Shown: one piece after another, positions 18,192 to 35,562 of the stretch
Layout: each line of letters opens with the position of its first letter
Position numbering within the stretch: position 1 is the stretch's first letter
Assembly: GCA_009692115.1 (NCBI GenBank)
Contig: SHZU01000002.1
Coordinates: forward strand, 62,001 to 126,000
DNA from: Gemmatimonadota bacterium
Lineage (GTDB): Bacteria; Gemmatimonadota; Gemmatimonadetes; Gemmatimonadales; GWC2-71-9
Direction of reading: 5' to 3'
Length of the DNA: 64,000 nt
Program-made: the position numbers and the translations under genes
Notes under the pieces: generated by a model
What the model was told of the DNA's origin: nothing
The model's database searches: none
The model's input: only the letters and a program-made list of their open reading frames with translations

Positions 18192-18788
18192 ATGCGTAAG
18201 CTCCTGGTTGCTGGGGTTGGAGTCGCGGTGATCGTCGGGGCCATGGCCCTCGGATCATCCCGGCCTTCGACCGCACAACAACAAGCGAAGAAACCCGACG
18301 CCGACTCGGTCGTCGCGCCGCGCCTAACGGTTGTTGATTCGGGCCAGCTCAAGGGCCCGAAACAGCCGATCTTTTTTCGGCACGACATCCATGCCGGGCA
18401 GTACAAGATCCAGTGCCAGTATTGCCACTACTCGGTGGCGGATGGGGCGGAACCGGGCATCCCGACGCTGCAGACCTGCATGGGCTGCCATGTGGCCATC
18501 GGCGGATCCGACTCGACCCATCGGGTCGAGATCAAGAAGGTCCGGGACAGCTGGCGCCAGAAGCGGCCGATCGAATGGGTCCGGATCCACACCCTCGCCA
18601 AGCATGTCCATTTTCCCCACATGCGGCACGTCAAGGCCATGGGGCCAAATGCCTGCGCCACCTGTCACGGCGACGTGGCCCGGATGCCCCAGGTATTCAA
18701 GGTTAACAACGTGAATAACATGGGCTTCTGCATCAGCTGTCATGTGGAGCGCAAGGTCAATCGCGATTGCACGGCGTGTCACTACTAG
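18192..18788 (+). CDS. actA: Alternative complex III subunit ActA, pentaheme cytochrome c
   Basis: 198 residues with an N-terminal hydrophobic anchor/signal (LLVAGVGVAVIVGAMALG). Five CxxCH haem-binding motifs are present: CQYCH, CMGCH, CATCH, CISCH and CTACH, as expected for ActA. It sits on the periplasmic side of alternative complex III, a quinol:electron-acceptor oxidoreductase that replaces cytochrome bc1, and passes electrons onward. It is the first gene of the actABCDEF operon, followed 19 bases later by actB. Confidence 0.93.
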   Translation: MRKLLVAGVGVAVIVGAMALGSSRPSTAQQQAKKPDADSVVAPRLTVVDSGQLKGPKQPIFFRHDIHAGQYKIQCQYCHYSVADGAEPGIPTLQTCMGCHVAIGGSDSTHRVEIKKVRDSWRQKRPIEWVRIHTLAKHVHFPHMRHVKAMGPNACATCHGDVARMPQVFKVNNVNNMGFCISCHVERKVNRDCTACHY

Positions 18789-18807
18789 GCCGCCTGAAGG
18801 AGAGTTG

Positions 18808-21810
<3,003 letters not shown>

Positions 21811-21814
21811 CGCG

Positions 21815-23164
21815 ATGACCGCCACGCTTCACGATTCTTCCCGGCCCGCCATGACGCACGCGGAGGTCACCCGCGACGTCGTCAATACCCTCCAGACGCC
21901 AAGCCGGGGCTACTACATGGCCCTGTTCGCGGCCATCGGCATGTTCTTGATCGGTGCCGCCACCTTCGTGGCGTTGCTGAAAGAGGGCCTCGGCTTGGCC
22001 GGCTACAATCCGCCGGTCTTCTGGTCCGTCTATATCACGACGTTTGTCTTCTGGATCGGTATCGGTCATGCCGGCACCCTGATTTCGGCCATCCTGTTCC
22101 TGTTCCGGTCTCCGTGGCGAACGGCCGTCTACCGGTCCACCGAGGCCATGACGGTGTTTGCCGTCATGACGGCTGGTCTCTTTCCGATCATCCACATCGG
22201 ACGCCAATGGATCTTCTACTGGCTCTTGCCGTACCCGAACCAGCGCTGGCTCTGGCCGAACTTCAAGTCGCCGCTGATTTGGGACGTCTTCGCGATCTCG
22301 ACGTACCTCACTGTGTCGACGACGTTCTTGGTCGTTGGCCTAGTGCCGGATATCGCCGCCGTTCGCGACAAGATGACCGGCTGGCGCAAGAAGCTGTATG
22401 GGGCGTTGTCGCTCGGCTGGACCGGAGCCGATTCCCAGTGGCGGCACTACAGCCGAGGATATCTCTACCTCGCGGCGCTGGCGACTCCTCTGGTGCTCTC
22501 GGTCCACTCGGTCGTATCCTGGGACTTCGCAATGTCGGTCATACCGGGGTGGCACGGGACGATCTTCGCCCCCTATTTCGTGGCCGGGGCCATCTACTCC
22601 GGCATCGGCATGGTGCTCACCCTAGTCATTCCGCTCCGCCGGGTGCTCAAGATCGAGCACCTGATCACCGAGTATCACTTCGATAACCTGGCCAAGCTCA
22701 CGCTGCTCACCGGGACGATTCTGTTCTACGCCTACGGCATGGAATACTTCGTGGCCTGGTATAGCGGGAATACCTACGAGCAGGAAACCTTCTGGCGCCG
22801 GGCGTTCGGCCCCCAGTGGTGGTCCGGGTGGACCATGATCACCTGCAACGCGTTCGTGTCGCAGCTACTCTGGTTTCGGAAGGTCCGGCGGAACCTGACC
22901 GCCTTGTTCGTCATCTCGATCTTCATCAACATCGGGATGTGGTTCGAGCGCTACGTCATCATTACCTCGTCGCTGTCCAATGACTTCCTCCCCTTTGCCT
23001 GGGGCCAGATGAACCCGACGTGGGCTGACTGGGGCATCCTGGTCGGCTCGTTCGGCTGGTTTGGGATGTACTTCCTGCTCTTCGCGCGGACCTTCCCGGT
23101 CGTCGCGATTCAGGAAATCAAGGAGATGATTCCGATGCCGCGTCGAAAGGGGGGAGCACACTGA
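21815..23164 (+). CDS. actC: Alternative complex III subunit ActC, NrfD-like membrane protein
   Basis: 449 residues with about ten transmembrane segments. The NrfD/PsrC-like character shows in FWIGIGHAGTLISAILFLF and HSVVSWDFAMSVIPGWH. In alternative complex III this subunit holds the quinol site and takes part in proton movement. It starts 4 bases after actB, and its last base pair overlaps the first of actD. Confidence 0.92.
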   Translation: MTATLHDSSRPAMTHAEVTRDVVNTLQTPSRGYYMALFAAIGMFLIGAATFVALLKEGLGLAGYNPPVFWSVYITTFVFWIGIGHAGTLISAILFLFRSPWRTAVYRSTEAMTVFAVMTAGLFPIIHIGRQWIFYWLLPYPNQRWLWPNFKSPLIWDVFAISTYLTVSTTFLVVGLVPDIAAVRDKMTGWRKKLYGALSLGWTGADSQWRHYSRGYLYLAALATPLVLSVHSVVSWDFAMSVIPGWHGTIFAPYFVAGAIYSGIGMVLTLVIPLRRVLKIEHLITEYHFDNLAKLTLLTGTILFYAYGMEYFVAWYSGNTYEQETFWRRAFGPQWWSGWTMITCNAFVSQLLWFRKVRRNLTALFVISIFINIGMWFERYVIITSSLSNDFLPFAWGQMNPTWADWGILVGSFGWFGMYFLLFARTFPVVAIQEIKEMIPMPRRKGGAH

Positions 23165-23676
23165 TGGCCAAAGCCGTTTCGGGCGTGCTTGCCTCGTTCA
23201 AATATGAGGACGCCGCCGTCAATGCGATCAAGGGCTTGAAGGCCAAAGGCTTCAAGGACCTTACCGTGTACTCGGCCGCGCCGAATCACCACATCGAGGA
23301 AGCCCTCGACCAACCGGTCAGTTGGGTCCGGGCCTTTACCCTGATCGGGGCCATGACCGGTTGCGCCGCCGGTTTCGGGATGTCGATTTGGATGGCCGTG
23401 GACTGGCCGCTCCTGGTCGGCGGCAAGCCAATCGTCGCCATTCCGCCGTTCGTCGTGCTGGGGTTCGAACTCACGATCCTGTACGGCGCGCTCTCAACCG
23501 TCGCGGGGGTCATCATTTTGTCGGCGATGAAATCTCTCAAGGGGCGGCCCTATAAACCCGAGTTCAGCGATGACACCATCGGGCTGTTCGTCCCCTGCCC
23601 CCAGGAGCAACGCGGCGCCGTTCGCACGTTCCTCGAGGGAACCGGGCCGGAGGAGGTCACCGAACATGGCTCGTAA
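23164..23676 (+). CDS. actD: Alternative complex III subunit ActD (DUF3341)
   Basis: 170 residues. A soluble N-terminal part (GVLASFKYEDAAVNAIKGL) is followed by two membrane helices (FTLIGAMTGCAAGFGMSIW and the region after IAIPPFVVLGFELTILYG). This is the DUF3341/ActD layout. It overlaps actC by one base and actE by 11 bases. Confidence 0.92.
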   Translation: MAKAVSGVLASFKYEDAAVNAIKGLKAKGFKDLTVYSAAPNHHIEEALDQPVSWVRAFTLIGAMTGCAAGFGMSIWMAVDWPLLVGGKPIVAIPPFVVLGFELTILYGALSTVAGVIILSAMKSLKGRPYKPEFSDDTIGLFVPCPQEQRGAVRTFLEGTGPEEVTEHGS

Positions 23677-24277
23677 ATCCTGGTTCACGCTCCTGGTGGT
23701 TGGAAGTCTGTCGGGGTGCAACTGGTACTACAATACGTTGCCGTCCCCGGACGACCTGATGAAACTGGTGCCGTGGTTCGATCATATGATCAAATCCCCG
23801 GCCGTTAGTCCCTACCAACGGTCCGATGTGCCCCGGATTACACCGCCCGGCACCGTCCCGATTACCGGAGGCGAGGCCGACTGGAATACCGGGAATCTGA
23901 CCGGCCCGATTCCGCTCTACGGCTTCGATAGTCTCGTCGGCAGTCGCCAAGTCAACCCGACCGATCCGGCTCGCACCTTAGCTCGGGGGGATACCCTGTA
24001 CGCGACGTTTTGCGCCACCTGCCACGGCGATCTCGGTGACGGCAAAGGCCCCGTCGGCGTGCGGCTGGGCGCGATGTCGCTCGTGACCGACCGGGCCAAG
24101 AGCTTCACCGATGGCTATCTGTATAGCATCGTGCGGTATGGGCGGGCGGGCATGCCCTTGTATGGTGACAAGATGTTCCGCCAGCATGACCGCTGGGCCG
24201 TGGTGAATTACCTCCGAAAACTTCAGGGCCTGACGGCGCCGGCACCGGCCCCTGCGGCGGAAGGAACGGTCAAATGA
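23666..24277 (+). CDS. actE: Alternative complex III subunit ActE, monohaem cytochrome c lipoprotein
   Basis: 203 residues from the ATG at 23666, inside the end of actD. A lipoprotein signal is visible (LLVVGSLSGCNW, lipidated Cys likely at residue 18). One CxxCH (CATCH) and a distal Met region (GRAGMPLYGD) mark a class I cytochrome c domain in the second half. It ends in an Ala/Pro tail. The longer open frame to 23570 lies inside actD and is not needed. Confidence 0.92.
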   Translation: MARKSWFTLLVVGSLSGCNWYYNTLPSPDDLMKLVPWFDHMIKSPAVSPYQRSDVPRITPPGTVPITGGEADWNTGNLTGPIPLYGFDSLVGSRQVNPTDPARTLARGDTLYATFCATCHGDLGDGKGPVGVRLGAMSLVTDRAKSFTDGYLYSIVRYGRAGMPLYGDKMFRQHDRWAVVNYLRKLQGLTAPAPAPAAEGTVK

Positions 24278-25599
24278 CCTCGCATCTCCGCGATCGCCTG
24301 GTGGCTCGCGGCCTCAGCGGCCGCTACGACCTGTTCTTCAATCTCGGCGGGTTGCTTGCGGTGGTTGGCGCCGCCTTGTTCGGGTACGCCATGACCTCGG
24401 TCGGCTCCGAGCGCGCTTGGCATTTGTTCCACGTCAACTGGCTGTTTTTTACCGGCATCACCGGCGGTAGTCTGGCCGTGTCCGCCGTCCACAAACTGGC
24501 CAACGCCAAGTGGTCCGGGGTCATCATTCGATTCGCCCAGGCCCACGTCTTCTTCGCGGTGGTCTCCCTGGCGGGATTGGTGGCCATTTTTACGGTCGGG
24601 TACGAACCGATCTATGGCCACATGCATGAGCAACTGCATTCGTTCTCGCATGGCAAGGCGCTTTGGCTCTCGAAGCCGTTCATGTTCGGCCGGTTGCTGA
24701 CGGGCCTCGGATTGCTGTACTGGGTTGGGTGGTCGCTGGTTCGGGCCGACTTGGCGCCGGACATTTCGCTGGCCAAGGATGTCGTCACCGATGCTCGCAA
24801 AGGGCTCTACCAGGGCATCGCGCAGGGGTTTGATCCGACGCCGGCTGGCCGGGCCGCGCACGACGCCAAGATTGGCCGCCTGGCCGCCGTCTATGTCGTC
24901 CTCTATGCGTTGGTGTTCTCGATCGTGGCGTTCGACGGAATGATGGCCCTCCAGCCGCACTGGTTCAGCAATCTCCTGGGCGGGTGGTATTTCATGGGCT
25001 CGTTCTTGGGAGCCCATACCTGCTTGGCCCTGATGACGATCTACGGCGGTCGCCACCTCGGGATCTCCGACTTGGTAAGCCCGAAGCAGCGGCACGACCT
25101 GGGTAAGCTCTGCTTCGGCTTTACTGTGTTCTGGGCGTATCTGATGTGGTCCCAGTTTCTGGTCATCTGGTACGGCAACATGGACGAGGAAACCGGGTTC
25201 GTCTTTGCCCGGCTTTGGGGCGAGTGGATGCCGATTGGCCGGGCGGTCTTCGTCGGCATGTTCCTGCTGCCGTTCTGGGGCCTCCTTTTCGTTGCGGCAA
25301 AGCGGACACCGCTGGTTCTAGGCGTGTTCGCCCTGGTGAGCTTCAGCTCGCTGTGGCTGGAGCGCTACCTCTTGGTGCTCCCGTCGGTCACGAAAGAGCA
25401 TGGTCCGGTCTTCGGCCTTCCAGAACTTGGGCCGACCCTGCTGATGCTGGGGCTCTTTCTGCTCTGTTATGCGGTATTCGCCAGACGGTTCCCGATGATT
25501 TCCCCGCGGCTGGCGGAGATTACCCTGGCGGCCGAACAGCACCACGGACACGAGGCGCCGGCTGCGGATCACGGCCCCGCGAAGGAAGTCGGCGCGTAG
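24274..25599 (+). CDS. actF: Alternative complex III subunit ActF, membrane protein
   Basis: 441 residues, about ten transmembrane helices, overlapping the actE stop by 4 bases. Recognisable stretches include FNLGGLLAVVGAALFGYAM, GGSLAVSAVHKLANAKW and LWSQFLVIWYGN-like sequence (MWSQFLVIWYGNMDEETGF). ActF is a distant relative of ActC. It is the last act gene; no cytochrome oxidase genes follow, unlike many genomes where a caa3-type oxidase is next. Confidence 0.92.
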   Translation: MTSHLRDRLVARGLSGRYDLFFNLGGLLAVVGAALFGYAMTSVGSERAWHLFHVNWLFFTGITGGSLAVSAVHKLANAKWSGVIIRFAQAHVFFAVVSLAGLVAIFTVGYEPIYGHMHEQLHSFSHGKALWLSKPFMFGRLLTGLGLLYWVGWSLVRADLAPDISLAKDVVTDARKGLYQGIAQGFDPTPAGRAAHDAKIGRLAAVYVVLYALVFSIVAFDGMMALQPHWFSNLLGGWYFMGSFLGAHTCLALMTIYGGRHLGISDLVSPKQRHDLGKLCFGFTVFWAYLMWSQFLVIWYGNMDEETGFVFARLWGEWMPIGRAVFVGMFLLPFWGLLFVAAKRTPLVLGVFALVSFSSLWLERYLLVLPSVTKEHGPVFGLPELGPTLLMLGLFLLCYAVFARRFPMISPRLAEITLAAEQHHGHEAPAADHGPAKEVGA

Positions 25600-25896: not shown

Positions 25897-26157
25897 TCAA
25901 TGGTCTGAACGATTCGGCCAGGGCCAGATTGACGGAGGCTCTGCGTTCGTCCTGCTCCATGACCTCGTCTGCCGGCATTTCCGGCGCCGAATGGCCGCTT
26001 GGGCTTCGTCGCGAGCCAAGTTGGCCGCCACCGCGAAAACCCAGGCCCGCGGTTTCTCGGGACGGTGCGCCATCGCCCGGATGAAGACCTTTCGGTACAG
26101 AAATCGAACTACTGCCGTGTAGGTGGACTTGTAGAGGCGCTCTAGTTCATCGGTCAT
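25897..26157 (-). pseudogene. Broken ECF-type RNA polymerase sigma factor
   Basis: From the ATG at 26157 (GAGGGGGGAAG upstream) the frame reads MTDELERLYKSTYTAVVRFL, then YRKVFIRAM, then PRAWVFAVAANLARDEAQAA. This is ECF sigma region 2, but the segment between FLYRK and VFIRA that normally carries the A-E-D-L-x-Q-E core is missing (about 15 residues). After RRRK the frame shifts: the continuation DEVMEQDERRASVNLALAES is in another frame. Region 4 (the -35 binding helix-turn-helix) is absent. It lies downstream of the cysteine-rich gene on the same strand. Confidence 0.65.
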
Positions 26158-26298
26158 TCCGAGCTTCCCCCCCTCCCCCCGGTCGTCCGCGTTCCGACAA
26201 TAGTTAAGATGACGCTTGACCTGAGGCCAATTGCACAGGTTCCAGGCGCCTCCAGCCCGATTCTGCTCGATGCGATCATCTAAAGCGTTTTCGGACAA

Positions 26299-27658: not shown

Positions 27659-27682
27659 TTGGTGGATCTCGAATATTTCAGG

Positions 27683-27710
27683 GGCCCCGGTTACGCCGGG
27701 GCCTTTGTTT
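27683..27710 (+). terminator. Rho-independent terminator after the cupredoxin gene
   Basis: Stem GGCCCCGG (27683-27690) and CCGGGGCC (27696-27703), loop TTACG, followed by TTTGTTT. A textbook intrinsic terminator on the plus strand. Confidence 0.88.
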
Positions 27711-27793
27711 CTTCGCTCCGCCCCGCGACGGAACGCCGGGGCGGGGCATCCCCATCGGACACCCGTTGCCACCGCCATTCCCCGGAGATCCCC

Positions 27794-28948
27794 ATGCCCC
27801 GACGCTGCTTGCTCGCGCTCCTCTCGCTCGCGGCCGCGGCACCCGCGGCGGCCCAACCCGAGGCCAAGCTCGTCAGGCCGGCCGCCAGGCTGGCCCATCA
27901 ATTCAGTACCATCGGCGGCGCCAGGGAATTGGCGGATGGCCGGGTGCTGATTGCCGATGGGATCGACAATGTCGTACTCCGGGTCGACTTGGCGACGCAG
28001 AAGCTCGACACCGTCGGTCGGTCGGGGCAGGGGCCGGGTGAGTACAAGGCACCCGACGCGCTCTTTCCGCTGCCGGGCCAGGCCACGATGGTCGTCGATC
28101 TCGGGAATGCCCGGCTCAGCATCTTCGATGGCGCCGGCAAGTACCGTGAGTCGATTCCGATTGCGCAGGGCCAGCCCGGCCAGGGCGCGTTCTCGCTGAT
28201 CTTTCCGAGGGCGGTCGATGCGGCCGGCCGGATTTACTACCAGCCGCTGGGCGGCGGACCCCGAGCCGACTCCACGGTCGTGATTCGCTGGGATCGGGCG
28301 TCGGGCCGGTCCGACACCGTGGCCCGAGTCAAACTCCCCTCGATGATCACCAAGGAGTCGGGCGGACCCAACAACCGCAACATGCGCCAGCGGCCGACGC
28401 CGTACCCTCCCCAGGATTCGTGGGCGGTTGCTCCGGATGGCCGAGTCGCGCTGGTTCGGGCTCCGGTGTACCGGGTCGACTGGGTCTCAGCGGCTGGCGT
28501 CCGAACGGTTGGGAAGCCGATACCGGCTGTCGCCGTGCCCATTCGCGAGGCCGAGAAGAAGGAATACCAGGCGGACCAGGCCGCCAACGGACTCTCGGTC
28601 TCGATGGAAAACCGCAACGGACAGGTTTCGATGAACTTCAGCCGAGGCCGATCCGACGGAGCCAGGGAAGAGGCCGAAGACATTGCCGCAACGGAGTGGC
28701 CCGCCGCGAAGCCGGCCGCGACCGGTCTGGTGCTCGCGGCACCGGACGGGATCCTCTGGATCGAGCGATCGGGCCCGGCCGGTGCCGCGCGGACCTACGA
28801 CTTGATCGGCCCCGATGGCGCGGTGGCTCGCCGGGTGACCCTGCCGGTTGGACGCCGGGTGGTGGGCTTTGGGGCTCGAGGGGTCTACGTCCGGCACATC
28901 GATGCGGACGGGATCAATTACCTGGAACGGTACGACCAGCCGAAGTGA
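27794..28948 (+). CDS. Secreted 6-bladed beta-propeller-like protein
   Basis: 384 residues from the ATG at 27794 (GGAG upstream). It has a signal peptide (CLLALLSLAAAAPAAAQ). The repeated pattern of blade-like strands (DGRVLIADGIDNVVLRVDL, TVGRSGQGPGEYKAPDALF, MVVDLGNARLSIFDGAGKY) is that of NHL or 6-bladed propellers common in Gemmatimonadota and Bacteroidota. No enzyme active site can be identified. The last 35 bases overlap the end of the convergent PAP2 gene. Confidence 0.7.
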   Translation: MPRRCLLALLSLAAAAPAAAQPEAKLVRPAARLAHQFSTIGGARELADGRVLIADGIDNVVLRVDLATQKLDTVGRSGQGPGEYKAPDALFPLPGQATMVVDLGNARLSIFDGAGKYRESIPIAQGQPGQGAFSLIFPRAVDAAGRIYYQPLGGGPRADSTVVIRWDRASGRSDTVARVKLPSMITKESGGPNNRNMRQRPTPYPPQDSWAVAPDGRVALVRAPVYRVDWVSAAGVRTVGKPIPAVAVPIREAEKKEYQADQAANGLSVSMENRNGQVSMNFSRGRSDGAREEAEDIAATEWPAAKPAATGLVLAAPDGILWIERSGPAGAARTYDLIGPDGAVARRVTLPVGRRVVGFGARGVYVRHIDADGINYLERYDQPK

Positions 28949-29792
28949 AGATCCACCGCGTGGCGGGAACGACCATCGCCGCGACGATCGCCCCCGCGAG
29001 GGCGTCGATCCCGTAGTGCATCTGGCAGTAGACCACCCCGACGGTGAGGAGCCCGGCGGCGACGATGAGTGCGCCGCCCACGGGGCGGGAGGCAGGCCAC
29101 GTCATCGCGGCCGCTACCCAGGTGGCCGCCACGTGTGACGATGGAAACGCGGCCCCGTATGAGCTCCCCCGCTCGAGTACGCCGTACACGGCCCGGGCCG
29201 GCCCATTGGCCGTGAACCACGCGTCGGGCCGAACGTATTCGTAGTAGGGCCCCGCCACCGGAAAGAAAATGAACCACAAATAGCAGACGACGAAGGTGGC
29301 CATCAACGCGAAACTGGCGAACACCAGCCGGGGCTCGTCGCGCCGGACTATCGAGATCAGGATCGGGACCGGAACGACGAAGTAGTAGGCAAAATACGCC
29401 GCATGGAGCACCGAGGACCAAAAGGGGCTTGGCGCCCGGCGCCACCATTCCGCACTGATCTCGTGGCCGAAGAGGCCGCGTTCCCATTGCCGGATCAGGA
29501 CGTCGTAGGTTCGCTCGGCCCCGAAGCCGCTCAGGAGGTCGAGGGCTCCGTAGAGTGCCAGCAGGACGACGAACGGGGCGGCGCCCCGGAGCAGCCGGCC
29601 GGCCGGCCCGAGTCGGGGAGATTGGAACAGCCCCAAGAGCACCAGCAGCAGTCCATGGGCCACCACCGCCCACGCGGCGGCGGGATACCGATCCATCCGG
29701 ACCAGTCCCGTGGCGATGACGACCGTGGCATAGCCGCCAAGCAGCCACTCGGATGGTCGGGGCCTCACAACCACCGATGCTGGCGATACCAA
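28914..29792 (-). CDS. PAP2-superfamily membrane protein, probable sphingolipid phosphatase or head-group transferase
   Basis: Up to 292 residues with about six membrane helices. PAP2 catalytic motifs: AAFPSSHVAATW (second phosphatase motif with the catalytic His) and CQMHYGIDALAGAIVA (third motif, His and Asp). The layout is closer to the inositol phosphorylceramide synthase-like PAP2 group than to soluble acid phosphatases. It is the last of four overlapping genes after serine palmitoyltransferase, an acyltransferase and an SDR, so a role in processing a ceramide phosphate or adding a head group is likely (inference). The start is a TTG at 29792, or a GTG nearer 29774; both overlap the upstream gene. 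Confidence 0.8.
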   Translation of the reverse strand: MVSPASVVVRPRPSEWLLGGYATVVIATGLVRMDRYPAAAWAVVAHGLLLVLLGLFQSPRLGPAGRLLRGAAPFVVLLALYGALDLLSGFGAERTYDVLIRQWERGLFGHEISAEWWRRAPSPFWSSVLHAAYFAYYFVVPVPILISIVRRDEPRLVFASFALMATFVVCYLWFIFFPVAGPYYEYVRPDAWFTANGPARAVYGVLERGSSYGAAFPSSHVAATWVAAAMTWPASRPVGGALIVAAGLLTVGVVYCQMHYGIDALAGAIVAAMVVPATRWIFTSAGRTVPGN

Positions 29793-30733
29793 TCAGCCGT
29801 CAGGCGGGCACCCGTCTCACAATCGTGCCGGGCTGTCCACCCCGTAGCGGTGGTCAACGGCCCCGGGTCGGCGAGCCAGGCTGGCGCGAAGAACTCGGCT
29901 GCCTTGTCGAAGGAGAGTACCGTGGCTTTGCCCGCCACCCGGGCCGCCCGATCGGTGGCCCAAAGGATGGCTCGGCCGAGTGGCTCTGGAATGCCGAAGA
30001 TCTTGACCCGTTTTCCCATCGCCGCCCCGACGAGTTCGATCAACCGGCGACTGGAGATCGCCTCCGGGTGGCAAGCATAATAGGTTCGCCGCGACGTTGT
30101 TGGGGCCGTCCCGGCCGCGACGAGCGCTTCCGCCAGATCCGGGGCATACACGAACGAAAGCTGCTGAGCGCCACTGCCGAATACCGGAGCAAACCCTAAC
30201 GCCGCGGCTCGGAATACTCGGAACAACTCCCGGTCGCCGGGGCCGTAGACGGCGGGTGGGCGGATGATCGTCCAGTCCAATGCGGACGCACGAACGACCT
30301 CTTCGCCGGCGAGCTTGCTCCGGCCGTACTGAGTGACCGGATGGGGGGGCTCGATCCCGGTCAAGGGCCTGTCTCTGACGGTAGGGCCCCCAGCGGCCAG
30401 GGACGACACCAAGATGAATCTGGGACATTGGGCCTCGATGGCGCCGGCTACCAGGCGGGCGGTGCCGTCTCGATTGGCGGCATCGAACTCGGCTTGGCTC
30501 CGGGCGGCGACGAGTCCGGCCACGTGATAGACGAGGTCGTGGCCTTCGCAGGCCTCCGCCAAGCCGTCGGAGCGATCGACGTTGCCCGCGATGACCTTGA
30601 CGCCTCGGGCCGTCATGTCGCCGGCTTTCGATGGGCTTCGCACCAGGGCCGAGACCGAATGTCCACCGGCCAGTAGCGCGTCGACCAAGTGGCCACCTAC
30701 GAAGCCGGTCGCACCGGTGACCAGCACGTTCAC
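29765..30733 (-). CDS. Extended SDR (NAD-dependent epimerase family), candidate ceramide reductase CerR
   Basis: 322 residues from the GTG at 30733. The cofactor motif VTGATGFVGG is at the N-terminus, VSSLAAGGP carries the Ser, and the catalytic pair is in TQYGRSK (YxxxK). In Caulobacter the reduction step of ceramide synthesis is carried out by an epimerase-family SDR, CerR. Position between a GNAT-type acyltransferase and a PAP2 protein in an spt operon supports the same role here. The substrate is inferred, not shown. The longer open frame to 30877 lies inside the upstream gene. Confidence 0.75.
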   Translation of the reverse strand: MNVLVTGATGFVGGHLVDALLAGGHSVSALVRSPSKAGDMTARGVKVIAGNVDRSDGLAEACEGHDLVYHVAGLVAARSQAEFDAANRDGTARLVAGAIEAQCPRFILVSSLAAGGPTVRDRPLTGIEPPHPVTQYGRSKLAGEEVVRASALDWTIIRPPAVYGPGDRELFRVFRAAALGFAPVFGSGAQQLSFVYAPDLAEALVAAGTAPTTSRRTYYACHPEAISSRRLIELVGAAMGKRVKIFGIPEPLGRAILWATDRAARVAGKATVLSFDKAAEFFAPAWLADPGPLTTATGWTARHDCETGARLTADWYRQHRWL

Positions 30734-31845
30734 AAGCGGCGCTCGTAGACGCGGAAGGTCTTGTACGGGGTCATCCCCAGGTTCGTCAGTCCGGCGTTCA
30801 TGACCGGGTTGTCCTCCAGCACCCATCCACCTTCGCCCCAGGTCATGTTGCGGGCGCCTGCCTTGGTCCAGATCCAATGATAAAGGAGGGCGTCGACGGC
30901 CTTCCCGCGGTACTCAGGCAGGACGCCCAAGAGAAGGATCCGGGTCCGGCGGATTTTCTGCCGTTTCACCGCCCACAGCAATTGGAGCGCGGCCGGCCAC
31001 ATCCGTCCCTGCCGATTGGTCCGGAGGATCTGGTTGAAATCCGGGAGTGCCAGCCCGAAGCCGATGGGTTCACCGTCGCGCTCGGCAAAGGGTACCAGAT
31101 CGGGCACCACCACCGGCCTAAACTGGGCTGCCAAGTGATCGATCTCGGGATCGGTCATTGGCACGGCGCCCCAGTTTGATTCCCAGCACCGGTTGTAGAG
31201 AGTCTTGACGGTCTCGACTTCGGCCTTGAAGTCCTTGAGGCGGAGCGCCCGGACCGTGATGCCGAACCGTTTCTTCGCGATGTCGACCGCTCGCCGGATC
31301 CGATCGGGCGGCGTCACGAACTGTTTTTCGTCGCCCCCTTGGTAGGCCGTTAGGTTCTTCACCCCGGCCAAGCCGGCGCCTTCGAGCAGTCGGGCGTAGC
31401 TGGCCGGGTTGTGGGGCATCATGATGGTGTTGGGCGTGTCGAACCCGGCGACGAGCAGGCCGTATTCGTCGTTGACGGAAAACGACGCCGGACCCCGGAT
31501 TGAATCGAAACTCTTGGATTTGAGCCAGGCTGCCGCGGCTTCGACGAGCGCCGTTGCGACGGTGTGATCGTCGATCGTCTCGAAAAACCCGAAGAACCCG
31601 ACCCGGTCATGGTGCGCCTCATTGTGGAGCCGGTTGACGATCGCCGCGATCCGGCCCACCACTTCGCCTCCGCGTTCGGCCAGGAAATACTCGGCCTCCC
31701 CGTGCTCGAAGAATGGATTCTTGATCCGAGAGAGGAGGATCTCGACATCCCGACGCAACGGCGGGACCCATAACAGGTCCCGCTGGTGGAGTCGAAACGG
31801 CAGATCGATGAAGGCCTTGAGTCCGGCGCGGTCCGAGACCGCCAA
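30730..31845 (-). CDS. GNAT-fold acyltransferase, candidate bacterial ceramide synthase (bCerS)
   Basis: About 371 residues. Recognisable segments are FIDLPFRLHQRDLLWVPPL, NPFFEHGEAEYFLAERGGEV, FGFFETIDDHTVATALVEAA, and the late GNAT-like ILLLGVLPEYRGKAVDALLY. This large two-lobed GNAT-like family commonly lies beside spt; in Caulobacter such a protein (bCerS) acylates the sphingoid base. The start is uncertain: TTG at 31845 has AAGGG close by; the frame is open to 31965 inside spt. It overlaps spt and the SDR, so the genes are cotranscribed. Confidence 0.75.
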   Translation of the reverse strand: MAVSDRAGLKAFIDLPFRLHQRDLLWVPPLRRDVEILLSRIKNPFFEHGEAEYFLAERGGEVVGRIAAIVNRLHNEAHHDRVGFFGFFETIDDHTVATALVEAAAAWLKSKSFDSIRGPASFSVNDEYGLLVAGFDTPNTIMMPHNPASYARLLEGAGLAGVKNLTAYQGGDEKQFVTPPDRIRRAVDIAKKRFGITVRALRLKDFKAEVETVKTLYNRCWESNWGAVPMTDPEIDHLAAQFRPVVVPDLVPFAERDGEPIGFGLALPDFNQILRTNRQGRMWPAALQLLWAVKRQKIRRTRILLLGVLPEYRGKAVDALLYHWIWTKAGARNMTWGEGGWVLEDNPVMNAGLTNLGMTPYKTFRVYERRL

Positions 31846-31862
31846 GACCCTTACGGGCGCGC

Positions 31863-33071
31863 TCAGATGACGCCCATCTCCCGGCCGAGCTTCCCGATCG
31901 TCTCGAGGGCATAGTCGATCTGATCGGCCGTATGAGTGGCCATGACGCTGGTCCGGAGCCGACATTGGGACAGGGGTACAGCGGGCGGCACCACCGGATT
32001 CGTGAACACGCCGGCGTCATACACCTTCCGCCACATCATGAGCGTCCGGTCGAGCGGTCCGATCAGGATTGGAATGATCGGGGTTTCCGACGGGCCGACG
32101 TCAAAGCCGAGGTGCTTGAAGCCGTCGGCCAGGCGCTTGGTGTTGGCCCACAACTGGGTCCGCCGCTCGGGCTCCTGCTGGAGAACTTCGAGCGCGGCCA
32201 AGACGCCGGCGGTGTTCGCGGGCGGCAACGCGGCCGTGAAGATCAACGGCCGGCTGTGGTGGCGGAGGTAGTTGATGACCGATTTGGACCCGGTGACGAA
32301 TCCACCGATCGAGGCCAGCGACTTGGAGAACGTGCCGGCAATGATGTCGACTTCGTCGGACAGCCCGAAGTGGGCGGCGGTGCCGTCGCCGTTCGGTCCG
32401 AGGACGCCGATCGAGTGAGCGTCGTCGACCGCCAGGGCCGCCCCATGGCGGCGGCAGACCTTGAGGAGGTTCGGGATGTCGGCGATGTCACCTTCCATCG
32501 AATAGACCCCGTCGACGATCACCATTTTGCCGCCCGACTCATCGTGCCGGGCGAGCTTCCGCTCCAGGCCTTCGAGCGAGCCGTGATTGAACCGTTCGGT
32601 GGTGCCATAGCTCATTTTGGCGCCATCGACGATCGAGGCATGATCAAGCTTGTCGAGGTAGACGACATCGCCTTTGGTAACCAAACCGGAGATCAGGCCG
32701 AGATTGGCATTGTAGCCGGTCGAGAAGACGATGCAGTCGTCTTTGCCGAGGAAGCGGGCCAGCGAGTCTTCGAGTTGGAGATGGAGGTCGAGCGTGCCGT
32801 TCAGGAACCGGCTCCCGGTGCAGCCGGAGCCGTAAAGGTGCAGTGCGCGGGTGGCGGCCTCGAGTACCTTCGGATGGTGGGTCAAGCCAAGGTAGTTGTT
32901 CGACCCCAGCATGATCCGCTTCTGGCCTTCAATGACGACAACCGTGTCTTCCGACTCGGAAATGGGCTTGAAATAGGGGTAAAGACCGGCCGCCTTGACC
33001 TCGTCGGCCCGGGTGAAGTCCCGGCACTTGTTGAACAGTGAGATGTCGGTGGTGACAGTGGTGCTCGACAT
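31863..33071 (-). CDS. spt: Serine palmitoyltransferase (alpha-oxoamine synthase)
   Basis: 402 residues from the ATG at 33071 (GAGGGA upstream). It condenses serine with an acyl thioester to 3-keto-sphinganine, the first step of sphingolipid synthesis. Fold-type I PLP motifs: SNNYLGLTHHPKV, TGYNANLGL, DHASIVDG, VDDAHSIGVLG (PLP Asp), and TFSKSLASIGG with the Schiff-base Lys. Related enzymes KBL and BioF share the fold, but the Y-F-K-P-I N-terminal stretch and the operon with an acyltransferase, an SDR and PAP2 favour SPT. First gene of the operon, divergent from the M6 protease. Confidence 0.88.
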   Translation of the reverse strand: MSSTTVTTDISLFNKCRDFTRADEVKAAGLYPYFKPISESEDTVVVIEGQKRIMLGSNNYLGLTHHPKVLEAATRALHLYGSGCTGSRFLNGTLDLHLQLEDSLARFLGKDDCIVFSTGYNANLGLISGLVTKGDVVYLDKLDHASIVDGAKMSYGTTERFNHGSLEGLERKLARHDESGGKMVIVDGVYSMEGDIADIPNLLKVCRRHGAALAVDDAHSIGVLGPNGDGTAAHFGLSDEVDIIAGTFSKSLASIGGFVTGSKSVINYLRHHSRPLIFTAALPPANTAGVLAALEVLQQEPERRTQLWANTKRLADGFKHLGFDVGPSETPIIPILIGPLDRTLMMWRKVYDAGVFTNPVVPPAVPLSQCRLRTSVMATHTADQIDYALETIGKLGREMGVI

Positions 33072-33288
33072 GGGGTCCCTCGCCGCTGAAGTGTTGACGG
33101 GAAACATGGAGCGATCCCGTTACGCAACAAGGAGTTAAGTTATTAGGCCGGGGGGCCGAGCACAAGCTGGATGTCTCGGAACGGGACGGGAGGGGCCGGC
33201 CGGGTCGGGTGGTGCGCCGTGGCGCCGTGTCCTAGTAGTATTCGCAGTATTCCCGATCGGGTTCGGGATGGTTCCGGGGAGGATGGGG

Positions 33289-35562
33289 ATGCTAGCTCGG
33301 CTTGGAATGATCGGACTTCTCACGGTCGGCGCGGCCACCAGCCTGGCGGCGCAGCGGCCGAATGCGGTGGCCGGCCGGTTCGAGGTGCCGGGCATGGATT
33401 GGGCTCCGACCTCGGCTTGGCGGGCCCGAGCGGCGCAGGTTCGGGCTAATCGGTGGGCTGCGATCGAGCGGGGCGACTTCCGGTCGCTCAACAGCAGCGG
33501 CCGGTTGCTTGCCCTCGGCGCGCCGGGCGGCGGCGCCAGCAGTTTTGCGGTGACCGGCACGTTCTTCGTTCCGGTGCTGGCCATTGCCTACAACAACATC
33601 GACGTGGCCTATCCGGTGCCGAACTTCCAGCAGGTCCTGTTCGGCGCCACCCCGCCAGACCAACGCCCCTTCACGCTGAAGTCGTACTACGAGCAAGTCT
33701 CGAATGGCCGGATCGGAATGGACGGCCGGGTGTTCGACGGCGTTCGGGTGGACTCGAGCAACACCTACTACGAGAACGGCTGCAACGGCATCGGCGTCCG
33801 GACTACCTGCTCCGATGGCGGCCAGCGACTCGGGAACATGCTGATTGCCGTGCTGGACTCGGTGTCAAACCGAGCTGGTGGTGACACCGTGTGGAATCAG
33901 TTTGACAACGACGGCCCCGACGGCGTTCCGAACTCCGGTGACGATGACGGCGATGTTGACTTCGTCACCTTCCTGCAACCGACGGTCGATGGGGCCTGTT
34001 CGACCCCAGGGGTGTGGGCCCATCGGTTTGTGATCGCGGGATGGAACGGCGGGTCCAAATACGTGACCAAGACCCCACGGCGGAATGGTGCCGGCCAACC
34101 GATCGCGGGGCAATTCGTCCGGGTCAACAACTATACGATCCAGAGCCAAGTGGGCGGGGCCTCGGGGTGCGGTGCGGGCTTCATCATGCCGATCGGCACC
34201 GTGGCCCATGAGACCGGGCATGCGTTCGGCTTGCCGGACCTCTACGACACTGACGTCAGCGGTAGCGGAACGGAGGGCATCGGCGAATGGGGCATCATGG
34301 GCAGTGGGAACTACTCCAGAGCGTACAGCCCGACCGGTTACGATGCTTGGTCGCTCAATGAGTTAGGCTGGGTTACGGTCGACACGCTCAATGCCAGCCG
34401 AACGGTGAAGACCGGTCCGCGGCAGGCGTCCGATACCATCTTCTTGGCGCGACTCGAGGCCAACAACGAGCTGCTGCTGATCGAGAACCGGCAAGCGGTC
34501 GAGTCGGACACGGCGGCGCTCAACCCCGGCGGAAATACGGCGGCGAACTGTCGCTCCAATTGTCTGAAAGGTCCGGGCCTGCTGCTCTGGCATATCGACC
34601 TGGGTCGAATCGCGTCGGGGCGCCCCTCCAACCGGATCAATACCGGCTCGATCCAGGGCGTGGCGCTGAAGCAAGCCGATGGCCTCAACAATCTCCGAAG
34701 CAGCGGGTCGACCCGAAATCGGGGCGACATTGGTGATCCCTATCCCGGGTCGACCGGCAATACCACGTGGTCGTTGACCACCACCCCGGCGTCCCGGTCG
34801 AATTTTGGAGAATACGCGGGCTTCATCGTGGACCGGATCGAGGCGTTGCCAAGCCAAGTCATCCGGTTTCGGTTTCTTCGCCGGAATCCGTCGGTGGTGC
34901 GCTCGACCCTTCCCGGCGCCTCGGTCCGGGTCAATGACCAGCTCTGGGGCCGATTTGAAGACGTGATTGCCCAGGGCGAGGCGTTGCGGCTCGACGCTGA
35001 CTCGGTTCAGGAGGTGTTCACCGGCCGGACCCGAGGGCGGTTCCTGGCCTGGAGCATCGGCGGGCCGCGGCGCCAAGTTGTCATCAGCGGCGTGAAGCCA
35101 GATACCATCTCGGCGACCTTTGCTGCCGATCATCGCCTCCAGGTGGTCCGAACGGGTGTCGGGCAGGGAACGGTCACCGCCAACCAAACCGGCGACCTCA
35201 CGGCCGGGTTCTTTCTGACGGAGGGGACGCCGGCGGTGCTGACGGCGCTTCCGGCCGCCGGATCGCTGTTCGTCGGCTGGCGGGGTGATACGACGATCGC
35301 CATCCCGACGATCACCGTCTCAATGGGACGGCCCTATGATCTCGAAGCGACGTTCATCGTGGAGCTGGACGTGCCGGTCGCCGACGCCACCACGGAAATC
35401 CTCGGCACCGCTAGGCTGACGAGCGACCAGAAGGAGTTCCTCGATCAACTGGGGAATCGGAACGGGGTCTACGATATCGGCGATTTGTTGTCGTTGTTGA
35501 GGCGAAAGGGCCAAGTACCGTCGCCCGAGTTGCTCCGGGCCATCGCCACGAAGGGGGCCTGA
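33289..35562 (+). CDS. Secreted M6-family metalloprotease with C-terminal repeat and dockerin-like end
   Basis: 757 residues from the ATG at 33289; GGGGAGG lies 6 bases upstream, which decides this start over 33268. Signal peptide: MLARLGMIGLLTVGAATSLA. The zinc motif HETGHAFGLPD begins at H307, followed by EWGIMGSG, as in immune-inhibitor-A-like M6 peptidases. After the catalytic domain come beta-rich segments, one of the type VVRTGVGQGTVTANQTG, and a C-terminal stretch FLDQLGNRNGVYDIGDLL that looks like a single EF-hand/dockerin-type repeat. It is exported and probably degrades extracellular protein. Confidence 0.85.
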   Translation: MLARLGMIGLLTVGAATSLAAQRPNAVAGRFEVPGMDWAPTSAWRARAAQVRANRWAAIERGDFRSLNSSGRLLALGAPGGGASSFAVTGTFFVPVLAIAYNNIDVAYPVPNFQQVLFGATPPDQRPFTLKSYYEQVSNGRIGMDGRVFDGVRVDSSNTYYENGCNGIGVRTTCSDGGQRLGNMLIAVLDSVSNRAGGDTVWNQFDNDGPDGVPNSGDDDGDVDFVTFLQPTVDGACSTPGVWAHRFVIAGWNGGSKYVTKTPRRNGAGQPIAGQFVRVNNYTIQSQVGGASGCGAGFIMPIGTVAHETGHAFGLPDLYDTDVSGSGTEGIGEWGIMGSGNYSRAYSPTGYDAWSLNELGWVTVDTLNASRTVKTGPRQASDTIFLARLEANNELLLIENRQAVESDTAALNPGGNTAANCRSNCLKGPGLLLWHIDLGRIASGRPSNRINTGSIQGVALKQADGLNNLRSSGSTRNRGDIGDPYPGSTGNTTWSLTTTPASRSNFGEYAGFIVDRIEALPSQVIRFRFLRRNPSVVRSTLPGASVRVNDQLWGRFEDVIAQGEALRLDADSVQEVFTGRTRGRFLAWSIGGPRRQVVISGVKPDTISATFAADHRLQVVRTGVGQGTVTANQTGDLTAGFFLTEGTPAVLTALPAAGSLFVGWRGDTTIAIPTITVSMGRPYDLEATFIVELDVPVADATTEILGTARLTSDQKEFLDQLGNRNGVYDIGDLLSLLRRKGQVPSPELLRAIATKGA

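Follow-up and report, generated by a model that had tools for sequence, protein, structure and literature searches.

We analysed a stretch of 64,000 nucleotides from a Gemmatimonadota bacterium (assembly GCA_009692115.1, contig SHZU01000002.1, positions 62,001 to 126,000 of the forward strand), called the window here, and found in it a four-gene operon on the minus strand at 28914-33107. The assignment to the phylum Gemmatimonadota agrees with the named relatives of the genome. The operon consists of spt, bcerS, cerR and a gene for a membrane protein of the PAP2 superfamily (Table 1), and each adjacent pair shares 4 bp: CTGA between spt and bcerS (31866-31863) and GTGA both between bcerS and cerR (30733-30730) and between cerR and the PAP2 gene (29768-29765). 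The initial annotation had described four overlapping genes with an outer bound at 33071; all four are present, that position is an inner ATG, and the bound is refined to 33107. Translation of bcerS most likely starts at a CTG overlapping the stop codon of spt, because the sole in-frame ATG lies 33 codons upstream within spt and because the same junction in relatives also reads CTGA or TTGA. The 4-bp overlap of the GNAT and SDR genes (bcerS and cerR) is frequent among relatives, and the PAP2 junction is tight. Sequence comparison leaves little doubt that the operon encodes a ceramide pathway, and it is likely that the last gene of this ceramide operon specifies an AUR1-type phosphotransferase.

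Table 1. Genes of the ceramide operon, with positions in the window
Gene	Position	Strand	Description
spt	31863..33107	(-)	SPT-like alpha-oxoamine synthase, 414 aa; alternative start at inner ATG, 33071
bcerS	30730..31866	(-)	Tandem-GNAT N-acyltransferase, bacterial ceramide synthase family; probable CTG start over spt stop
cerR	29765..30733	(-)	Extended SDR, NAD-dependent epimerase fold; GTG start, 4-bp overlap
PAP2 gene	28914..29768	(-)	AUR1-type PAP2_3 membrane protein, 284 aa; GTG start, GTGA overlap; predicted ceramide phosphotransferase (IPC synthase-like)

The product of the first gene resembles serine palmitoyltransferase (SPT) by several measures. In a phmmer search of the PDB it scored 424 bits with the SPT of Sphingobacterium, ahead of the Sphingomonas SPT (305), KBL (272) and cysteate acyltransferase (236), and among the NCBIfam models SPT (SerpalmtaseCFB, 517 bits) exceeded BioF (395) and KBL (379). 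It fell within the clade that holds both SPT references in a tree of 46 proteins (support 100/93), and the genome's separate KBL-like protein grouped with E. coli KBL in the same tree (100/96). When aligned with structures 3a2b and 2jg2, the lysine for pyridoxal phosphate (PLP) lies in GTFSKS, and the DHAS / VDDAHS residues are as in the solved SPTs. The window protein is described here as SPT-like by the tree and outside the three NCBIfam SPT subfamilies. Compared with Caulobacter, the operon is without acpR/aasR neighbours and its Spt is nearer to the acyl-CoA-using enzyme type of Bacteroidota (PMC11324152). Because no acyl-carrier-protein gene was seen beside the operon, and because of this nearness to the Bacteroidota type, the Spt likely uses acyl-CoA too.

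For the second and third proteins, comparisons were made with Sphingomonas and Roseomonas sequences standing in for Caulobacter CC_1154 and CC_1164. The GNAT protein aligned over its full length with those of Roseomonas (219 bits) and Sphingomonas (206 bits) at 35-38% identity; the genes for these lie in sphingolipid clusters with acpR, spt and lptFG that correspond to the Caulobacter region described earlier (PMC11324152). Its AlphaFold model (pLDDT 89) returned tandem GNATs as the top PDB folds (E 1e-13). The protein is a relative of CerS from these clusters, and N-acylation of a sphingoid base is its predicted activity. The SDR protein belongs to Pfam Epimerase and carries a TGATGFVG motif and YGRSK. 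A query of the genome with Sphingomonas CerR gave it 119 bits, with the next SDR at 31 bits, and it is by sequence the clear counterpart of that enzyme. Caulobacter CerR has been reported to be periplasmic (PMC11087976); no signal peptide was visible on the protein encoded here, whose predicted start, MNVLVTGATGFVGG, leads straight into the NAD-binding motif. The initial annotation had named the PLP enzyme an SPT and the GNAT and SDR proteins bCerS and CerR, and all three names stand: the first does not group with BioF or KBL, and the others align with CerS and CerR of alphaproteobacterial sphingolipid clusters.

The fourth protein matches Pfam PAP2_3 (62 bits) and has six hydrophobic segments and a His-His-Asp triad. 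In an alignment of 41 members of its type, H212, H251 and D255 (alignment numbering) are kept in all 41; we take these residues to correspond to the catalytic triad of AUR1, the fungal inositol phosphorylceramide (IPC) synthase. Their 39/4 spacing is identical to that in AUR1, as are the motifs AFPSxH and HYxxD that contain them. The phosphatase motifs KX6RP and SRX5HX3D occur in none of the 41, and both are present in a control, a phosphatase-type PAP2 protein of the same genome (L170:2384-2935). A profile of the family aligned with AUR1 from one end to the other (positions 55-268 of 276, E 0.003) and with phosphatases at the C-terminus only. When its AlphaFold model (pLDDT 94.6) was searched with Foldseek, the two AUR1 IPC synthase entries 9vj4_A (E 3.2e-5, TM 0.63) and 9ivc_A (E 4.0e-5, TM 0.66) were the sole matches below E 0.001, and the next stood at E 0.047. 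This comparison with AUR1-type synthases had been proposed in the initial annotation, whose description of an IPC-synthase-like layout is strengthened by it; the dephosphorylation step offered there as an option to head-group transfer is dropped, since neither fold nor motifs are phosphatase-type. Against this likeness, identity to fungal AUR1 is about 18%, AUR1 has a partner, Kei1, and the activity of the bacterial protein is a prediction. We consider it quite likely that the protein is a ceramide phosphotransferase. A second AUR1-like PAP2_3 paralog is encoded elsewhere in the genome (G000 contig C7:90208-91026; L175:1456-2388, L175:464-1693) and adjoins a gene of the flippase-like LPG_synthase_TM family; a lysylphosphatidylglycerol-synthase-like gene also lies near the inositol-lipid cluster of Bacteroides (PMC9246714).

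We surveyed 150 Gemmatimonadota genomes at a GNAT match threshold of E <= 0.001. The GNAT gene, which is present in a single copy in the genome studied here, was matched in 83 of them (77 strongly) and in 34 of the 35 genomes of its own family. A single strand carries the genes in the order Spt-bCerS-CerR-PAP2 at 17 of 18 loci of that family and its sister family f3 (one of those with the full order reaches into Spt at a contig end), at all five loci of family f7, and at 13 of the 15 best named Gemmatimonadota loci (L084-L098); in family f4 the order is CerR-Spt-bCerS-PAP2. Such an arrangement by chance is excluded, and the survey, suggested with the initial annotation, shows the order to be widely kept. 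The contiguity of the first three genes, which the initial annotation had pointed out, is not special to this genome and recurs in several phyla. Spt adjoining bCerS is common in Ignavibacteria, Bacteroidota, Zixibacteria and others, with CerR divergent in those three, and the order Spt-bCerS-CerR also occurs in Myxococcus dinghuensis, a Myxococcaceae metagenome-assembled genome (MAG) and a Streptomyces plasmid. Most of these clusters in other phyla are without a PAP2 gene at the locus. The pathway and its clustering are already known; the new part would be the assignment of the fourth gene as an AUR1-type head-group enzyme, together with comparative evidence for the use of phosphatidylinositol (PI). 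Homologs of bCerS are also found on plasmids of Klebsiella michiganensis, Escherichia, Ensifer, Shinella and Rhizobium (NZ_CP106839.1 and others).

The PAP2 type and bCerS occur together more often than shuffling would give. Sixty-two of the 150 genomes have the PAP2 type and 61 of these have bCerS, the lone remaining genome, G041, being a draft of 370 contigs. When the genomes were shuffled within families, the mean was 50.7 and the maximum 58 in 100,000 shuffles. In several genomes the PAP2 gene lies a few kb from bCerS, outside any shared operon. The supply of the head group can be followed in the same way. On contig C10 of the genome itself, the gene for inositol-phosphate synthase (MIPS) adjoins one for a CDP-alcohol phosphotransferase that scored 87 bits with PI(P) synthases, 40 with inositol-phosphate cytidylyltransferase/DIPP synthase and 23 with phosphatidylserine (PS) synthase, and this pair would make PI available as a donor. 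MIPS is missing from none of the 62 PAP2-positive genomes, and PS decarboxylase is missing from ten, nine of them in family f7 and the other being G107. The nine in f7, of ten PAP2-positive genomes in that family, have both MIPS and PI-phosphate synthase (PIPS). A relative that is 99% complete, G015, has kept Spt-bCerS-CerR and PS decarboxylase, and PAP2, MIPS and PIPS are all absent from it. The dissociations in G015 and f7 point to PI over phosphatidylethanolamine (PE) as the donor, and we lean moderately towards inositol as the head group. A few kb from the genome's own MIPS and PIPS genes (L170:1584-2935), a GT4-type glycosyltransferase is encoded with the phosphatase-type PAP2 protein; glycosylated inositol lipids are possible in this organism.

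Relatives of the PAP2 protein are found near ceramide genes well beyond the phylum. The gene follows that for CerR in an Acidobacteriota MAG (L133) and that for bCerS in a Cloacimonadota MAG (L149), it is next to CerR in Nonomuraea (L012), and in Prevotella sp. oral taxon 299 (L204:5573-7633) an AUR1-like PAP2 gene comes immediately after a CerR homolog; a related PAP2 is present in Phocaeicola massiliensis (L205:94-912). The proteins from Prevotella, Nonomuraea, Acidobacteriota and Cloacimonadota form a ceramide-linked clade with those of Gemmatimonadota (94/96). Zixibacteria too have members of the wider family, encoded in PAP2-PIPS-MIPS operons (L211, 783-3045; L217, 6703-9470; L221), with two copies in one genome, and these are probably inositol-lipid loci. 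The tree places them outside the ceramide-linked clade, which excludes them as direct orthologs and leaves them as support for a family link only.

Family-level gene identities, fold, motifs, synteny and co-occurrence were computed, and the pathway drawn from them is a prediction in every catalytic activity, as well as in its donor, product and cell compartment. Spt would make 3-ketosphinganine by condensing serine with an acyl thioester, bCerS, with its tandem-GNAT fold, would N-acylate this product, and reduction of the keto group by CerR would yield dihydroceramide; which of bCerS and CerR acts first is debated for Caulobacter, and the sequence given here is one option. The PAP2 protein would then use its His-His-Asp triad to place a phospho-head group, taken from a glycerophospholipid, on the C1 hydroxyl of the ceramide. 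The donor would most likely be PI, made by MIPS and PIPS, whose genes adjoin each other at a separate site in the genome, and the product would be IPC. On sequence and model evidence together, a complete inositol sphingolipid is probably among the organism's lipids. To the fuller proposal, that the operon accounts for complete IPC synthesis and that its PAP2 protein represents a ceramide-linked AUR1-type family that accompanies bCerS or CerR in Gemmatimonadota, Acidobacteriota, Cloacimonadota, Actinomycetota and Bacteroidota, we give an even chance.

Several observations weigh against the reading as a ceramide operon that ends in an AUR1-type phosphotransferase using PI. The Spt falls under every curated NCBIfam SPT cut-off (517 of 640, 417 of 500 and 353 of 670 bits), although these cut-offs define three narrow subfamilies and are no measure of activity. 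The PAP2 profile was built mostly from members linked to bCerS, an ascertainment bias, and the co-occurrence therefore holds for the subfamily and not for all PAP2_3 proteins. MIPS (138 of 150 genomes) and PIPS (142 of 150) are near-universal in the phylum, so plain co-occurrence with MIPS is weak as proof of inositol, and the weight rests on the dissociation cases. PIPS was not found at the threshold used in four PAP2-positive genomes, G066, G091, G131 and G143, the first three of which are drafts of more than 250 contigs each. The Zixibacteria and ceramide-linked PAP2 proteins may differ in their donors, and PE may be made by a route other than PS decarboxylase. Lastly, PAP2 relatives stand beside CerR in Bacteroidales, which make phosphoethanolamine ceramide by an enzyme yet to be identified. 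This brings up the most serious of the alternatives, in which the same ceramide operon ends in an enzyme that takes PE as its donor and yields ceramide phosphoethanolamine by transfer of phosphoethanolamine (or of another phospho-alcohol). The Prevotella and Phocaeicola relatives share the clade of the Gemmatimonadota protein, Bacteroides makes both ethanolamine phosphoceramide (EPC) and IPC and a search for its EPC synthase gave no match (PMC8791184), and the genome studied here has a PS decarboxylase of its own. The Prevotella-type gene is a candidate for the EPC synthase of Bacteroidales; it is mainly for this reason that we leave the head group unfixed. Yet PAP2 is retained without PS decarboxylase in nine of the ten f7 genomes and in G107, and G015 presents the reverse, so that we regard transfer from PE as unlikely, while still giving it some weight.

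The remaining alternatives are less probable. Many proteins of the PAP2 superfamily are phosphatases, and this one might act on ceramide-1-phosphate, phosphatidylinositol-phosphate or undecaprenyl diphosphate; the absence of both signature motifs from all 41 members, when the same-genome control has them, and the distance of phosphatase folds behind AUR1 (E about 0.05) rule out a phosphatase identity as far as motifs and fold can tell. Co-occurrence with bCerS would be unexpected for a general phosphatase, and one acting on PI-phosphate would agree with the inositol link and disagree with the position in a ceramide operon; we consider phosphatase activity improbable. No greater credence is given to the idea that the operon makes another aminolipid, be it a 1-deoxy- or lysine-ceramide or, through a cysteate-type acyltransferase, a sulfonolipid. 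Spt can take alanine for serine, and use of lysine has been hypothesised to explain the Lys-ceramides of bacteria from the Black Sea that carry Spt-like genes (PMC11334938), but at 424 bits the enzyme is much nearer to SPT than it is, at 236 bits, to cysteate fatty acyltransferase, and the C1 hydroxyl that an AUR1-type enzyme would need as acceptor requires a serine-derived base. That Spt is a second BioF or KBL, in an operon with no lipid role, is hardly credible: the unreached NCBIfam cut-offs would allow it, and the tree, which sets the protein apart from E. coli BioF and KBL and from the genome's own KBL, excludes it together with the bit scores, as does conservation of the operon with bCerS and CerR. 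IPC synthesis from PI is the reading that we prefer.

The genes on either side of the operon are unrelated and on the opposite strand, a beta-propeller open reading frame at 27659-28948 (+) and an M6 protease gene at 33268-35562 (+), and since they run in the opposite direction the operon is self-contained with exactly four genes. A survey of the flanks of 18 loci found neighbours that are only partly conserved, which rules out a conserved fifth operon gene; none was recognised as a lipid gene, though not every family was annotated. Elsewhere in the window, an ECF-sigma-like open reading frame at 25897-26298 (-) appears degraded, in that the stretch linking FLYRKV to FIRAMAH seems absent and the end seems to carry a frameshift; in relatives, a more complete copy lies downstream of the operon. 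Genes at 18192-25599 (+) encode a multiheme cytochrome c, a molybdenum-cofactor/Fe-S protein, an NrfD-like protein and further subunits, in what we take to be the gene order of alternative complex III.

Bacterial sphingolipids were long thought to be rare, and we know of few head-group enzymes outside Caulobacter and Bacteroides. The pathway of Caulobacter and Sphingomonas (Spt CC_1162, bCerS/CerS CC_1154, CerR CC_1164) uses the same three enzyme families, and in alphaproteobacteria homologs of the GNAT and SDR proteins share one cluster with spt, acpR and lptFG; the phospho-head group of Caulobacter is phosphoglycerate, added by other enzymes. According to a recent paper, cerS never shares an operon with spt and cerR (PMC11324152), whereas here the three genes overlap within one operon. 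Bacteroides BT_1522-1526, compared here by description, comprises an AUR1-like enzyme, MIPS and PIPS, and BT_1522 mutants lose PI-dihydroceramide (PMC9246714, PMC8791184). There the AUR1 homolog lies with the inositol genes and away from the ceramide genes; here it is the reverse. The view that sphingolipids are little described for this phylum holds in the open literature searched, where no account of sphingolipid production by Gemmatimonadota turned up, but Spt-like genes had already been reported from 40 phyla (PMC11334938).

Our findings indicate that cerS need not occupy a separate operon, contrary to the general statement in the literature (PMC11324152). With ceramide synthesis and an AUR1-type head-group enzyme encoded by four genes that overlap, a single construct would be enough to test the entire route in E. 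coli. If the predicted pathway is correct, probable sphingolipid production extends to an abundant soil phylum, and the protein targeted by the antifungal aureobasidin A would have a bacterial relative in the PAP2 protein. Should the Bacteroidales members of the family share the same or a close function, the family would also supply a candidate for the missing ethanolamine phosphoceramide synthase.

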